From the IMG/VR virus record IMGVR_UViG_3300037193_000175, positions 1 through 45,574 of that record: 45,574 nucleotides of DNA; one strand, 5' to 3'. Under the pieces are notes generated by a model. The model did no database searches. It had not been told where the DNA came from and saw only the letters and a program-made list of their open reading frames with translations. Below are positions 3,118 to 12,632 of the stretch, one piece after another. This DNA is from a virus. A program made the translations under genes and the position numbers. Within the stretch, counting starts at the first letter, position 1. Each line of letters starts with the position of its first letter.

Positions 3118-4825
3118 ACGACAACACTTCCGGGTTCGGACGCTTGTTCAACCAAACGCGGATACGACGCGGGATACGAAGGTGTTCGGCGTTATGCAGA
3201 ACTTCGGCGTTGGTTTCCGGCGGTTCGACCGGCGCACGCTGGCGGAACCAATCGCGCCCCTTCTTCTTCGGAAAGCCGTCGCCTTCGACTGTTACCCATT
3301 CATAGAACGTACGAAGTCCGTTGCAGTAGTACGCCACCTTGACCGAATGCTTGCCCGACTTCCTGGACGTATGCGCTGAATAGACGACGCGCAGCACGTC
3401 GAAGTATTCGACAACCGGCAAGTCTGATCGCAACAGTTCTTCGTTTGAAGCCGTGCCCACAATGTTTTGAGCAAACTTGAATTCCTCGCCGCATACGATG
3501 CATTCGCGCGCCCTAGTGTGGTTGTACGCGCCGCAACCGTCGCATATCTTTACCGGAGCATCGCCAGCGCGGCCCTTGCCCTTCGGGTTCGGGATAACCG
3601 GGTCGTTGATCGGCCCTAGCCGCCGCGTGTTACCGGCGAAGTCCAGGACAAGGCAATGATGCTTCGTAAACTCGAAACCCGGTATGTACTGTTGAACGTT
3701 GCGCCAATCGTACGGTCGCGTTCCACGGCCTAGCATCTGAACCCATAGGCCCGTTGACATGGTAGGTCGCATCATCGCGATTAGATCAACCGGGGGATGA
3801 TCGAAGCCCGTTGTAAGAATGTCCTTATTGACGATGCAACGTAGTTCGCCGCGCTTGAACGCCGCAATCGTTTCGTCGCGGTCCTTGCGCTTCGAATGGA
3901 CGACGCCGGTTGGAACCCCGAACGTCGATCGCAGCATTTCGCCGATATGCTCGGCATGTTCGATACCGCTCGCGAAGACAAGCCAGGACCGCCGTTGCAT
4001 TCCTAGTTCCATGACTTCGCACAATGCCTTGTACGTTACGTCCGGGTCGTCAACTGCCGCCTGAAGTTGGTTTTCGGCGAAGTCGCCGGTTGACGACAAG
4101 CCGACGCCGGATACGTCAAGTTCGGTCGCAGTCTTCTTCGGGAAGATCGGCGCAAGATAGCCTTCCGCGATCAATCGACCGAAGCCTTCGATATTCGTCA
4201 AGTCGTACGCAATGTGACTGAAGATCGGCCCGTTGGTTAGAAGGCCCATGCCAAGCCGATAGATCGTCGCGGACAGTCCGATGATCTTCATGTACGGGTT
4301 GATCGCGAGTAAATCGAGTATCAGTTGACCGTACGAACTGTCCGCCGAAGGCCCTACTAGGTGCGCTTCGTCGATTACCAAAAGATCGCGATACCCTAGC
4401 ACGCTGCGACCGTGTTCGTCGTACTTGCCAACCATTGACTTTACGCCGCCGAATACGATCGGCTGTATGAAGTCCTTTTGCTTCAACCCGGCGCTGTAAA
4501 TCCCTAGCGGAGCGTGCGGCCAAATGCGTTGCATTTGCTTCGCGTTTTGTTCGATCAATTCCTTGATATGTGTTGCCATGATCGCCCGCGTTTGCGGGTA
4601 TATCCGAAAGGCCCGTTCAAGGAACTTGCCGAGTACGAACGACTTGCCGGTTCCGGTTGGCAGCGCGATAAGCGGGTTCGCTCGAATGGGCCTGCCTTCG
4701 GCGTCGGTTCCGCCGTGTTCTTCGAAGAAGCGAAATAGCGCGTCAACGCTTTCTTCCTGATACCAACGGTCCAGGCCGACATGCGGGGGAGTTAGCGAAG
4801 TCGCGAGCGCCAGCGAAGCGTTCAT
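3107..4825 (-). CDS. SF2 DNA helicase (DEAH type) with zinc ribbon
   Basis: ATP-dependent helicase of superfamily 2, about 572 aa. Visible motifs: Q-like RWYQEESVDAL near the start, Walker A LPTGTGKS (about 55-62), DEAH in VIDEAHL (about 152-155), motif III GLSAT (about 184-188), motif VI QMLGRGTRP, and a C-terminal zinc ribbon with CDGCG and CIVCG about 13 residues apart. The chosen ATG at 4825 overlaps the stop of the nuclease gene as ATGA; a longer reading to 4903 exists but lies inside that gene. It is comparable to RecQ/UvrB-like phage helicases that unwind at the fork or in recombination. Coupling to a Cas4-like nuclease suggests joint end processing. Confidence 0.9.
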   Translation of the reverse strand: MNASLALATSLTPPHVGLDRWYQEESVDALFRFFEEHGGTDAEGRPIRANPLIALPTGTGKSFVLGKFLERAFRIYPQTRAIMATHIKELIEQNAKQMQRIWPHAPLGIYSAGLKQKDFIQPIVFGGVKSMVGKYDEHGRSVLGYRDLLVIDEAHLVGPSADSSYGQLILDLLAINPYMKIIGLSATIYRLGMGLLTNGPIFSHIAYDLTNIEGFGRLIAEGYLAPIFPKKTATELDVSGVGLSSTGDFAENQLQAAVDDPDVTYKALCEVMELGMQRRSWLVFASGIEHAEHIGEMLRSTFGVPTGVVHSKRKDRDETIAAFKRGELRCIVNKDILTTGFDHPPVDLIAMMRPTMSTGLWVQMLGRGTRPYDWRNVQQYIPGFEFTKHHCLVLDFAGNTRRLGPINDPVIPNPKGKGRAGDAPVKICDGCGAYNHTRARECIVCGEEFKFAQNIVGTASNEELLRSDLPVVEYFDVLRVVYSAHTSRKSGKHSVKVAYYCNGLRTFYEWVTVEGDGFPKKKGRDWFRQRAPVEPPETNAEVLHNAEHLRIPRRIRVWLNKRPNPEVLSYEF

Positions 4826-5724
4826 ACGATGCGCCGCCATTGTGGGCACCCGTTCGGGACATGCTCGCGCGGTATGTTGCCGTCGTGAACGCGACAGTAC
4901 CATTGGCCGTCGTCAACCGGGCTGGCGTGTTCGCAGCTTCGGCAGTTCTTTTCCGGCGATGCGCCGTGGTGGCATATCGACGACAGGTGGCACATTTTGC
5001 AAGTGAAGAACGCGGCGCTTTCGGCGATCTTCGCCGGGGGCGTTTGACTGAATATGATGCGCCCGGCTTTGTCGTACAGGTTGACGCTATGGTTCCAATC
5101 GAGCGCGACGACTTCGAAATACAGTTCGTCGGTTTCTTTGTTGATCGCGCAGTAAACGGCGTACTTGAAGCCGTACGCCTGCCCGTACGAACACATTTGC
5201 GAATAGTGTTGCGGCTTCGACTTGCGGACGCCTTCGGCCTTCGACCGATCGCGAATGAGTTGCGGCCATTTCGACTTGATCGGCCCGGCAAGCTTCGCGA
5301 ACGACTTTTCGTTGTGCGTCTTGTACTCGCCTAGAAGCGGTTCGTTGATTTCGTATCGCGGCGGCGCGACGAACACGCTGTCCAGGGAACCGCCGTAGTG
5401 CCCCTTGTGTCCGTTGATCTTGTATTGCTTACCGTCGCCGTCGAATTCGAAAACTTCGAACCCGATACGCTTCAGCCGATGAATGAACTTCGGTTCTTCG
5501 AAGTGACCGCGTTTGAACAGCCGATGCATTCGACCGTCGAAGCGTTCTTGCTTCAACCAACGGAAGTTCGACCACGCCCGACGCTCGCATTCCTGCCCGA
5601 TTTCGGACGCGCCCAAGTGCCAGCGCGGGCCTTCTTCGTATTCGGCGAGGCTATCGGCTTCGACTTCCTGCGAAATCGTCGCGGCTAGCCGTTCCCGTTC
5701 AGTTTGGAAGGATAGATCGTACAC
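4822..5724 (-). CDS. PD-(D/E)XK exonuclease, Cas4/RecB-like
   Basis: 300 aa. The nuclease core is seen as GASEIGQECERRAW near the N-terminus, GHYGGSLDSVF with the metal-binding Asp, and LLGEYKTHN giving the E-x-K pair. The C-terminal third has many cysteines (CKMC, SIC, NCRSC, WYC, NGC), as in Cas4/AddB-type enzymes that hold an Fe-S cluster. The start is GTG at 5724 with AAGGGG seven bases upstream. It is translationally coupled to the helicase (ATGA). With Sak4 and DUF669 protein it forms a phage recombination set; it probably resects DNA ends to give 3' tails. Confidence 0.87.
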   Translation of the reverse strand: MYDLSFQTERERLAATISQEVEADSLAEYEEGPRWHLGASEIGQECERRAWSNFRWLKQERFDGRMHRLFKRGHFEEPKFIHRLKRIGFEVFEFDGDGKQYKINGHKGHYGGSLDSVFVAPPRYEINEPLLGEYKTHNEKSFAKLAGPIKSKWPQLIRDRSKAEGVRKSKPQHYSQMCSYGQAYGFKYAVYCAINKETDELYFEVVALDWNHSVNLYDKAGRIIFSQTPPAKIAESAAFFTCKMCHLSSICHHGASPEKNCRSCEHASPVDDGQWYCRVHDGNIPREHVPNGCPQWRRIV

Positions 5725-9509: not shown

Positions 9510-9716
9510 ATGACCGCGCCGCCTGAAACGTCGCTTTTCGAGCGAACTAAAGCACTTGTCGAAGCTGCCCCGCGCCATATAACGCTTACCGTCATGGCGC
9601 GCGAAACCGGCCTTACCGTATCCTGGATATCGCGCTTCGCAGCGGGCAAGTTCCCGAACCCCGGCGTGCATCATGTCCAGGCATTGCACGACTATCTAGC
9701 GGGGCTTCATTCGTAA
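9510..9716 (+). CDS. Small HTH transcriptional regulator (Cro/CI-like)
   Basis: 68 aa. A helix-turn-helix is visible in LTVMARETGLTVSWISRFAA (about residues 26-45). The ATG at 9510 follows GGGGA; a longer reading upstream would run through the promoter region and is rejected. It lies immediately after the divergent promoters and overlaps the primase start (TAATG), so its amount is tied to primase. Probably an autoregulator of early transcription in both directions. Confidence 0.78.
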   Translation: MTAPPETSLFERTKALVEAAPRHITLTVMARETGLTVSWISRFAAGKFPNPGVHHVQALHDYLAGLHS

Positions 9717-12127
9717 TGTTCCGCAACATTCCGTCCGAAATGCATTTTTACCGTCAATGGATTTGCTGGCGTCTTGAAGATCAAGGCGGGCCGAAACCGA
9801 CGAAGGTTCCGTATTCGCCGATCATCCCCGGCGCGAAGGCGAGCGTCGATAAGCCGGGCACATGGGGCGGGTTCGAAGACGCAATCGCCGCATACGAAAG
9901 CGGAGCCTTCAGCGGTATCGGCTTCGTCCTAACCGACGCGGACCCGTACGCCTTTATCGATCTTGACGACACGAAAGGCGATAACGAAGCGCTTCAGCGG
10001 CAACAGCGTATCTTTACCGAATTCCCGTCGTACGCCGAACGCTCGCCTTCAGGCACCGGCCTTCATATCATATGCAAGGGCAAGGTCGATCGGGGCCGCA
10101 AGCGCGCAGCGATCGAAGTATATTCGAACCTTCGCTTTATGACTATGACGGGCGAAATTTACCGGGACGCCCCGATCATCGATTGCCAGGAAACGCTAAC
10201 GCTGTTGTGGCATCAAATGGGCGGACCGGCGGCGATACATCAATACGGCGGCAACGCCGAACAGAAAGAAGACGACGCAACGATTATCGGTCGCGCCTTG
10301 TCCGCACTGAACGGCGACAAGTTCCGCGAACTGCTAGAAGGGCGTTGGGAAGACCTGTACGCTTCGCAGTCCGAAGCCGATTTCGCATTCGTCGATATCG
10401 TCGCATTCTACACGCAAAACCGCGAACAGATTACCCGCATATTCCGCGCCTCGCCGTTGGGCGCTCGCGACAAAGCGAAGCGCAACGACTACGTAACGTA
10501 TATGATAAACAAGTCGTTCGATCGCCAGCTTCCCGAAGTTGACGTTGAAGGCTTGAAGCTTCAGTTCGAAGACATGCTAGCGTCGAAGGATGAACCGATG
10601 TTGCCGGGGTTCGACGCCGGTAACGGGGGCGACGTGGAAGGACCAACGCCGCCCCCGGCCCATAGCGGCACCGGGCAGGACCGCGAGCGCTACACCGCCA
10701 CCGCTCCGCAACAGGACGACGGCGCTCCAGGGGCAGGGCAAGACGTGCCAGCTATCCCCGGCGGCGTCAACGGCTCGATTGCTTTTCCACCGGGTTTAGT
10801 CGGCGAAGTCGCCAAGTTCATTTACGAAGCCGCGCCGCGTCCCGTATCGGAAATCGCACTTGTCGGCGCGATCGGCTTCGTATCCGGTATTGTGGGCAGG
10901 GCATTTAATATCAGCGCAACCGGCCTGAACCATTATACGATGTTGCTCGCGCCAACTGGCACCGGCAAAGAAGCGATCAACGCGGGCATATCGAAGCTTG
11001 TAACGGCTGTTCGGCCTAACGTACCGCCTATTCAAGATTTCATCGGACCCGCCGAAATTCGGTCCGACGCCGCGCTGTTGAAATGGCTTGCGAAGTATCC
11101 ATGCTTCGTATCCGTTACCGGCGAATTCGGCCTTCGCCTGAAGCAAATGTCGGCAATGAATGCGTCGTCGCATGAAGTCGGCTTGAAGCGCGTCTTACTC
11201 GATTTGTTCAACAAGTCGGGACACGGCAATATCTTGAACCCGGTCGCATACAGCGACAAGGAAAAGAACACCGCCGCAATCAACGCGCCAGCCTTCAGCA
11301 TGGTAGGCGAGACGACGCCCGAACGCTTTTACGACGCCCTGGACGAAATGATGATTAGCGAAGGCTTGCTGCCGCGCTTCTTGACGATCGAATACAGCGG
11401 CCCGCGTCCGGCCTTGAACGAAAACGCGCCATTCGCCCAACCGTCGTTCGCTCTAATCGAAATGGTTCAAGCGATCACCGTACATTGTCTAGAAGTCATG
11501 GCGAAAGGTTCCGTCGTCAACGTCCAAATGGACGAATACGCCGATCGGCTTATGCGCGACTTCGACCGCTACTGCGATGCTCAAATCAACGATCGCAACT
11601 CGCGTGAAGTGACGCGGCATATGTGGAACCGTGCCCACATCAAGGCGCTGAAGCTGTCCGCCCTGGTCGCTGTAGGCGTGTACCCGTACAAGCCCGTCGT
11701 CGATCGCGTTACCGCCCAATGGGCAACCGATATCGTCGTACGCGATATCCTGAACGTCATAGGCCGGTTCGATCGCGGCGAAGTCGGCACGAATGCGCTA
11801 GGGGTGAACGAACAGCGACAGATTGACGACATGGTTCGCGTCATAGCCGATTGGATGCGCGGCGACGGCTCGCAATGTGCGAAGTACGGAATGCCCGGTA
11901 ACATGCACGCCGCCGGTATCATCCTAGGTTCGGCGTTGAACAAGCGTCTTATGGCAATGGCTTCGTACCGCAACGATCGAAGCGGCGCTTCAGGTGCGAT
12001 CAAACGTACGATACAGTTCTTGCTTGACGGCGACGAACTTCGCGAAATCCCGAAAGGACAGATGCAATCTATGTTCGGTACGACCGCACGCGGATTTGCC
12101 ATTAGTCGTCCTTCGACGTTCGCGTAA
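9716..12127 (+). CDS. Primase-polymerase with C-terminal DUF3987-type ATPase
   Basis: 803 aa, likely the primase and possibly helicase of the replisome. The N-terminus resembles phage NrS-1 and plasmid prim-pols: FYRQWICWRLE, a metal-binding AFIDLDD (about residues 78-84), SPSGTGLHII (about 107-116, the S-x-H motif) and RFMTMTG (about 138-144). A Pro/Gly-rich linker (about 300-340) leads to a DUF3987-like domain with Walker A APTGTGKE (about 412-419). No zinc-ribbon of conventional primases is seen, as in NrS-1. It starts at TAATG directly after the regulator and is followed by the origin-like gap. In NrS-1 the enzyme starts DNA synthesis at a specific template octamer (established); whether this one uses TGTGGGCA is inference. 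Confidence 0.82.
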   Translation: MFRNIPSEMHFYRQWICWRLEDQGGPKPTKVPYSPIIPGAKASVDKPGTWGGFEDAIAAYESGAFSGIGFVLTDADPYAFIDLDDTKGDNEALQRQQRIFTEFPSYAERSPSGTGLHIICKGKVDRGRKRAAIEVYSNLRFMTMTGEIYRDAPIIDCQETLTLLWHQMGGPAAIHQYGGNAEQKEDDATIIGRALSALNGDKFRELLEGRWEDLYASQSEADFAFVDIVAFYTQNREQITRIFRASPLGARDKAKRNDYVTYMINKSFDRQLPEVDVEGLKLQFEDMLASKDEPMLPGFDAGNGGDVEGPTPPPAHSGTGQDRERYTATAPQQDDGAPGAGQDVPAIPGGVNGSIAFPPGLVGEVAKFIYEAAPRPVSEIALVGAIGFVSGIVGRAFNISATGLNHYTMLLAPTGTGKEAINAGISKLVTAVRPNVPPIQDFIGPAEIRSDAALLKWLAKYPCFVSVTGEFGLRLKQMSAMNASSHEVGLKRVLLDLFNKSGHGNILNPVAYSDKEKNTAAINAPAFSMVGETTPERFYDALDEMMISEGLLPRFLTIEYSGPRPALNENAPFAQPSFALIEMVQAITVHCLEVMAKGSVVNVQMDEYADRLMRDFDRYCDAQINDRNSREVTRHMWNRAHIKALKLSALVAVGVYPYKPVVDRVTAQWATDIVVRDILNVIGRFDRGEVGTNALGVNEQRQIDDMVRVIADWMRGDGSQCAKYGMPGNMHAAGIILGSALNKRLMAMASYRNDRSGASGAIKRTIQFLLDGDELREIPKGQMQSMFGTTARGFAISRPSTFA

Positions 12128-12411
12128 CAGCATACGAAAGAGCATACGACGTAAAGCGCGTCTAATGGCGTCTAGTGCCCTGTAGTATGCCGAAACCCGC
12201 AGAAAACCGCCAGTTCTAACGTTTCTAGCGTTCTAATGATTTCCCTTCAACCTAGGTCCGATCAGGTACGACAGTAAGCTATACCATTATATTAGAATAT
12301 TAGAATTATTAGAAAAGACTTAATTTCAGTCACTTAGGCATTTTACGGAATGCTAGAACCCGTTAGAAACGCCCTGGACGCACTTTTTATCGTATCCGGC
12401 GCATTTTCCGC
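12128..12411. other. AT-rich intergenic region with mirrored YTAGAA array; candidate replication origin
   Basis: No gene is seen. The hexamer TTCTAR occurs at 12214, 12223 and 12231, and its complement YTAGAA at 12292, 12300, 12309, 12353 and 12363. The first three and next three have mirrored spacing (9, 8 / 8, 9) around a centre near 12264. The stretch 12283-12335 is the most AT-rich of the window. Nearby are two direct repeats, AGCATACGA (12129-12154) and GCGTCTARTG (12158-12177). Its place between primase and the first early promoter fits an origin; an operator array is the alternative. Confidence 0.6.
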
Positions 12412-12439
12412 TTGACACGTCGCAATCGTCGTATATGTT
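12412..12439 (+). promoter_or_regulatory. Strong sigma70-like promoter of the accessory operon
   Basis: -35 TTGACA (12412-12417), 16-base spacer, -10 TATGTT (12434-12439), 28 bases before the ATG at 12468. The following leader TATCGAAACGGAAGGAC is repeated almost exactly before the gene at 19557. Confidence 0.75.
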
Positions 12440-12467: not shown

Positions 12468-12632
12468 ATGCGTACCGTCGAAAAGACCGCGACAACCGAA
12501 ATCGTCGAAATGGGCGCGTACGTTGCGCCGGGCTTTCCGCCGTGTAGCGAATTCTATGCGTATGCTGGCGACAAGCTTATTCGGGTTTGTCCGTCGCTCG
12601 GCATGGCGCGCGAAGTGCTTGCCGGGTATTGA
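12468..12632 (+). CDS. Small hypothetical protein, first accessory gene
   Basis: 54 aa from ATG at 12468 with GGAAGGA just upstream. Sequence is compact with a central VAPGFPPCSEFYAYAGDKLI and no known motif. First gene behind the strong promoter, so probably among the earliest and most expressed proteins; small early proteins of this kind often target host functions (inference). Confidence 0.7.
   Translation: MRTVEKTATTEIVEMGAYVAPGFPPCSEFYAYAGDKLIRVCPSLGMAREVLAGY

Follow-up and report, generated by a model that had tools for sequence, protein, structure and literature searches.

A mirrored array of short words beside a prim-pol/helicase gene as a likely replication origin in a group of lytic phages

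The window analyzed here is the whole 45,574-bp virus record, and its scanned genes (TerS/TerL, portal, capsid, tape measure, endolysin and spanin) point to a lytic siphophage. Between the stop of the primase gene at position 12127 and a promoter-like site for the early genes starting at 12468 (TTGACA-N16-TATGTT, 12412..12439, + strand) there is a gap, 12128-12411, that contains short words arranged in mirror symmetry. What does this array do, and which protein reads it? An earlier note had suggested an initiator array and a candidate origin of replication. We conclude that the gap is likely (probability about 0.8) the replication origin of the phage, with the adjacent prim-pol/helicase as its own initiator. 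This reading is supported by comparative evidence and is not proved; binding and origin activity are inferred, as there are no replication or binding data.

The array has ten short words, five per side, in an exact mirror with spacings, from left to right, of 10-44-9-8 | 60 | 8-9-44-10 (5-mer starts at 12161, 12171, 12215, 12224, 12232 | 12292, 12300, 12309, 12353, 12363). The left half is oriented on the minus strand. Its two far words, which read GTCTAA (12160..12165) and GTCTAG (12170..12175) on the plus strand, are the mirror partners of the words at 12363 and 12353, respectively; the second is 10 bp from the first and 44 bp from the near triple TTCTAA (12214..12219), TTCTAG (12223..12228) and TTCTAA (12231..12236). 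The right half, on the plus strand, consists of a near triple of TTAGAA (12292..12297, 12300..12305 and 12309..12314), then CTAGAA (12353..12358), 44 bp from the triple, and TTAGAA (12363..12368), 10 bp further on. Both the array and its geometry are shown directly. An origin of the iteron type is expected to have repeated words in a short interval, and a replicon of the pRN1/P4-alpha type a cis site adjacent to the replication gene; the ten words span 209 bp and lie 33-241 bp past the primase stop, which satisfies both criteria.

How did the earlier description of this locus fare? Its placement of the array between the primase gene and the first early promoter held (stop at 12127, promoter-like site at 12412), with the reservation that the 10 of 12 match of the promoter-like site is not evidence of function. 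All eight copies that it named were present where it put them: three TTCTAR at 12214, 12223 and 12231 (spaced 9 and 8), three TTAGAA at 12292, 12300 and 12309 (spaced 8 and 9), and two further copies, CTAGAA at 12353 and TTAGAA at 12363. The left mirror partners of the last two, GTCTAA (5-mer at 12161) and GTCTAG (12171), were missed. The claim of a spacing near one helical turn failed, since 8-9 bp is shorter than one turn. The claim of an AT-rich core held in part: the strongly AT-rich segment sits on the right triple (12288-12327).

Could such an array arise by chance? A mirrored 3+3 array of any 5-mer appeared in one of 300 shuffles of the whole window and in none of 3000 shuffles of the gap. 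The hexamer YTAGAA itself showed no enrichment across the whole window (23 found, 19 expected); the unusual property is the clustering. Tandem pairs of the word 7-11 bp apart were found at the array and nowhere else in the window.

The AT-rich stretch (12288..12327), which contains the right near triple, has 15% GC and is a candidate unwinding element, a role that is inferred. The whole gap has 44% GC, and the 1-kb window covering it has the lowest GC of the record. Between the far and near words on the left there is a constant box, GCCGAAACCCGCAGAAAACCGCC (12189..12211, + strand), little changed in Birtae, Kharn, L002 and L003; its function is inferred. Other phages carry GCTAAGTnnnTGATTT at this place, and its reverse complement fits the IHF consensus. 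On the right, the constant box TTTCAGTCACTTA (12324..12336, + strand) is IHF-like (WATCAANNNNTTR with 2 mismatches) and lies 15 bp after the last near word, a position at which an IHF-like constant box is found in many relatives; binding of IHF is an inference. The density of the IHF consensus was 1.84 compared to 0.04 per kb, which is partly due to AT composition, and only the fixed +15 bp position was used as evidence.

Three other signals were considered. No DnaA box (TTWTNCACA, up to 1 mismatch) was found in the gap; a DnaA box is not universal among iteron-type origins. A stem-loop origin like that of pRN1 was ruled out, as the fold energy of the gap equals that of shuffles (z -0.15). GC skew, proposed in the earlier note as a check, was computed as well: its detrended minimum in the window is at 12430, near the array, yet in four other genomes the skew tracks the direction of transcription. 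This check cannot decide the matter, and GC skew was dropped as origin evidence.

In having mirrored arm sites separated by IHF-like boxes, the array also resembles the layouts of recombination (attP-like) and partition (parS-like) sites with IHF bends. We consider this reading all but excluded. Neither an integrase nor ParAB was found among the window proteins scanned (some ORFs were left out), the lysis and terminase genes are of lytic-phage type, and the protein that covaries with the word (see below) is a replicative primase-helicase.

The gene to the left of the array (9716..12127, + strand) codes for an 803-aa protein matching phrog_3022 (E 2e-233), annotated as 'DNA primase'. We took an AEP (or TOPRIM) primase domain, a ring-type AAA+/SF3 helicase domain and a C-terminal winged helix as the protein criteria for a prim-pol/helicase/winged-helix replicon of the pRN1/P4-alpha type, and the protein satisfied all three. 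The N-terminus matched the NrS-1 prim-pol both in phmmer (E about 1e-27) and in Foldseek (E 2e-14), with a further phmmer match of the primase to 7ola (E 1e-31). The helicase matched MCM AAA+ folds (E 3e-6 and weaker) and has the Walker A motif PTGTGKE; it is taken as a ring-type AAA+ helicase, ring formation being inferred. The AF2 model (mean pLDDT 87.7; alignments built from the window and IMG/VR loci only) has a prim-pol domain, a disordered linker, an MCM-like AAA+ helicase, a helical region and a C-terminal winged helix. The last domain (about aa 718-803; 11867..12124, + strand) was modeled from the last 120 aa with a pLDDT of 90.6 and a pTM of 0.81, and its topology, H-S-H-H-S-wing-S at pLDDT above 90, is that of a winged helix. 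Foldseek gave only weak MarR/RTP-like matches to it (best E 0.04), and a profile of the C-terminus had no sequence match among PDB chains.

We observed that relatives keep the mirrored architecture and carry other words. The word is TTCTAAT in the window phage, Birtae and L017; TTGTAT in L002, L015/L200, Kharn and Lucius; TAGTAT in L003, L149, Eidolon and Acinetobacter Lokivirus AB_SZL7; TTTAAT in Kimi and L019; TAGGAT in L020; TAGAAT in L034; TATAAT/C in Septimatrevirus 73 and Kaya, KL1, VCLv21 and many more; and GGGGAT and AGGGAA in Baskent_P4_1 and VpKK5. Most of the words fit one frame, T-xyz-A-Y. A generic scan for mirrored arrays in the 4.2 kb downstream of the primase was positive in 54 of 110 relatives compared to 2 of 327 Markov shuffles. 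A point against the origin reading is that the exact-word scan was passed by only about half of the relatives. On a 41-phage tree we counted at least 20 changes of the word, yet ten phages, with six words among them, share the exact right-hand spacings 8-9-44-10. Absence of the hexamers from relatives had been named beforehand as grounds for refuting the origin reading. When this test was run, the hexamer was found to change often and the architecture to be kept; conservation with changes of word is shown, and the hexamer test alone would have misled.

The array usually follows the primase directly, and in some phages it is 0.4-3.4 kb away. In AB_SZL7 (L260, an Acinetobacter phage; 4300-4590), it is located upstream of the HTH-primase operon rather than downstream.

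Several features of individual loci were recorded along the way. In Variovorax phage VCLv21 (L007, 5550-5790), the array is shifted to about +390, and by eye the segment separating it from the primase stop contains an inserted small ORF for an AlpA-like regulator. The mirrored array of Achromobacter phage Axy18 (L259, 7260-7520) uses a word, GTGTTTTCGGT, that is very unlike the others and falls outside the T-xyz-A-Y frame. Pseudomonas phage PSV3 (L013, 5700-5940) has a tandem duplication (about 120 bp) of the terminator-promoter segment that follows the primase. Directly upstream of the primase, two loci (L056, about 3700-3995, and L059, about 1680-2175) have a GIY-YIG homing endonuclease-like ORF, and in eight others (L036, L045, L053, L070, L076, L077, L085 and L093) a ribbon-helix-helix (RHH)-like protein replaces the XRE-type HTH protein; both observations were made by eye. 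A search of IMG/VR for primase-less satellites or contigs sharing the word array returned 37 + 2 pattern matches, none convincing.

The turnover of the word makes it possible to ask which protein changes with it. For the null model, each variable base was evolved on a tree built from the primase body (aa 1-650) of 40 phages; the word frames had been set manually. Against this tree-simulated null, primase columns 742 and 743 ranked 1 and 2 of 600 for base x; columns 747, 746 and 742 ranked 1, 3 and 4 of 600 for base y; and column 747 ranked 1 of 600 for base z. When all phages of debatable frame were dropped, the top column was 742 for x, 746 for y (with 747 in fourth place) and 747 for z. Other primase columns, 584, 712, 438 and 604, ranked high too; several non-contact columns are expected to do so because of linkage and the limited number of taxa.

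The codons of residues 742-747 (NKRLMA) are at 11939..11956 on the plus strand, and these residues are the proposed word readers. At 742, the apparent code pairs Thr with x=T, Asn with x=C and Gln, His or Ser with x=A; at 746/747, it pairs Gln, Lys, Arg or His with y=G and Ala or Ser with yz=TA. For example, Q, K, R or H at 746 or 747 was present in 10 of 10 training phages with y=G and in 2 of 30 others (Fisher p 8e-8, with no tree correction). Seven hold-out phages outside the training set mostly followed the code: the y=G rule gave 4/4 compared to 0/3, and both hold-out GGG words went with a primase having Arg742 and Arg746. In one hold-out, FtMidnight, the array is fuzzy and its word was assigned by eye. 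The code has exceptions: L006 has S742 with x=C and L008 has Q742 with x=T, in both L147 and L205 Gln at 746/747 goes with a y other than G, and the Axy18 word falls outside the frame.

Covariation of the array word with residues 742-747 is shown. That the primase C-terminus binds the words is likely and remains indirect, being inferred from covariation. It was earlier held that no classical initiator gene is present. This point appears resolved: the C-terminal winged helix of the adjacent prim-pol/helicase covaries with the word base by base, and therefore the initiator appears to be the prim-pol/helicase itself. The covarying residues sit in predicted helix 2 and the following turn and not in the usual recognition helix; therefore, the mode of docking may be unusual.

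One pair of relatives offers a natural experiment. The primase bodies of L002 and L003 are 95-98% identical in DNA, and from codon 661 onward through the array the identity falls to about 70%, and the two arrays carry different words. That the C-terminus and the array change together fits a specificity unit. In the same pair, the HTH gene and its upstream region (about 4430-4995) are replaced as well (about 50-60% identity), with 93-98% identity on both sides of the replacement, 2 kb from the swapped primase C-terminus and array. This second change could reflect an independent, immunity-like turnover of the operon repressor, which is no more than a possible explanation.

The HTH gene is at the center of a rival reading. 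A 68-aa XRE-type HTH protein (9510..9716, + strand; phrog_6223, transcriptional repressor, E 4e-9) is encoded upstream of the primase and is likely the operon repressor; the earlier note had named it as a candidate for binding the array. In the rival reading, the array is the operator through which this repressor silences the early promoter at 12412, with a repression loop formed by the mirrored layout. In its favor, the HTH gene heads the operon and was swapped along with the array between L002 and L003, the array abuts the early promoter-like site, and the protein resembles phage repressors. By eye, a Ser-Arg-Phe feature compared with word classes had suggested the HTH protein as word reader; Mantel tests ruled this out, with no covariation between recognition-helix residues and the word (r -0.06, p 0.74). 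In a column scan, the best single HTH columns were not recognition residues: none of them leads for y or z, and the one that leads for x is the final residue of the protein, which is not part of the HTH. Besides, arrays persist in several phages where RHH-like proteins replace the HTH, the words cluster only at the array, and the array can lie 1-3.4 kb away from the primase or on the upstream side of the HTH gene. Lacking overall covariation with the word, the HTH candidate failed, and the operator reading is very unlikely.

Another rival accepts the primase C-terminus as the binder and assigns it a different role: copy control or autoregulation (similar to P4 crr, or an early-transcription shut-off), with replication starting elsewhere. 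Covariation indicates the probable reader of the word and not the effect of binding, and the array does lie between the replication operon and the early promoter. On the other hand, a search of the window and of four other genomes turned up no second array of the word, the AT-rich triple and the mirrored layout suit an origin, and the origin of pRN1 is at the equivalent place (PMC4234260). We consider the copy-control reading unlikely.

Under the preferred reading, with the array as origin, the following mechanism can be proposed. The 803-aa protein would bind the ten words through its C-terminal winged-helix domain, with residue 742 (together with 743) tied to the first variable base of T-xyz-A-Y and residues 746/747 to the next two. 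Five mirrored words per half would place two opposed groups of protomers, and a bend at the constant (IHF-like) box would fold each far pair back onto the near triple. The AT-rich right triple would then melt, two helicase assemblies would load facing apart, and the prim-pol domain would prime bidirectional replication. In this scheme binding is inferred from covariation; the role of IHF, melting, opposed loading and origin activity are inferred from precedent.

The precedents differ in how closely they fit. The alpha protein of P4 binds origin repeats through its C-terminal winged helix, unwinds and primes (PMC4234260). Similarly to the window protein, it combines a primase, a hexameric helicase and a C-terminal winged-helix domain in one chain (PMC4234260), but the P4 primase is of the TOPRIM type and that of the window is of the AEP/NrS-1 type. 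The repeats differ from the P4 origin as well, being 5+5 mirrored 7-mers with a variable triplet, adjoining the gene. In the Sulfolobus plasmid pRN1, a small repressor and a prim-pol/helicase/winged-helix protein (ORF56/ORF904) form an operon, and the origin starts 54 bp past the stop (PMC4234260). The window shares the order of a small DNA-binding repressor, an AEP prim-pol/helicase/winged-helix gene in one operon, and then a cis site. The pRN1 origin, however, is a 100-bp stem-loop without iterons, whereas the window gap has iterons and no unusual single-strand fold (z -0.15). The pRN1 authors proposed the same arrangement in Bordetella phage BIP-1, with the binding motif not yet identified (PMC4234260).

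For NrS-1, two opposed copies of an 8-nt recognition sequence in the middle of the genome were suggested as the origin (PMC7102993). The NrS-1 polymerase has a homologous prim-pol N-terminus and a hexameric AAA+ ring (PMC7102993). Its two single sites are tied to primer-free synthesis (PMC7102993), while the ten words of the window phage covary with the C-terminal domain and not with the prim-pol domain. Finally, iteron-type plasmid origins share with the window tandem initiator words, an AT-rich segment and IHF-like boxes. They differ in that the window array is mirrored and not purely direct, the gap has no DnaA box, and the initiator is also primase and helicase. The words of iteron plasmids are spaced by about 20 bp, compared to 8-9 bp in the window array.

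In the open-licence literature searched, we found no prior description of such an origin or iterons for these genera, and no origin was named there for the phage groups concerned. The array is a concrete candidate origin for a large lytic group: Septimatrevirus, Kilunavirus, Lokivirus, Titanvirus, Sphingomonas and Queuovirinae phages. Its word is also a candidate for the recognition motif still missing, according to the authors of the pRN1 and NrS-1 studies, for this class of enzyme. The residue-to-base rule makes re-pairing of initiator and origin directly testable with few point changes.

A bolder reading is that many lytic phages with NrS-1/pRN1-type prim-pol helicases share one mirrored-iteron origin, whose word is read by residues 742, 743, 746 and 747 through a simple code, the C-terminal domain and the array being swapped or mutated as a unit. 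We lean slightly towards this view. If it is true, units of C-terminal domain and array would define replication-specificity groups in lytic phages. Fast turnover of the word along with fixed geometry suggests selection for replication specificity; the selecting agents, speculatively, may be hitch-hiking satellites, co-infecting phages or origin-targeting defences.
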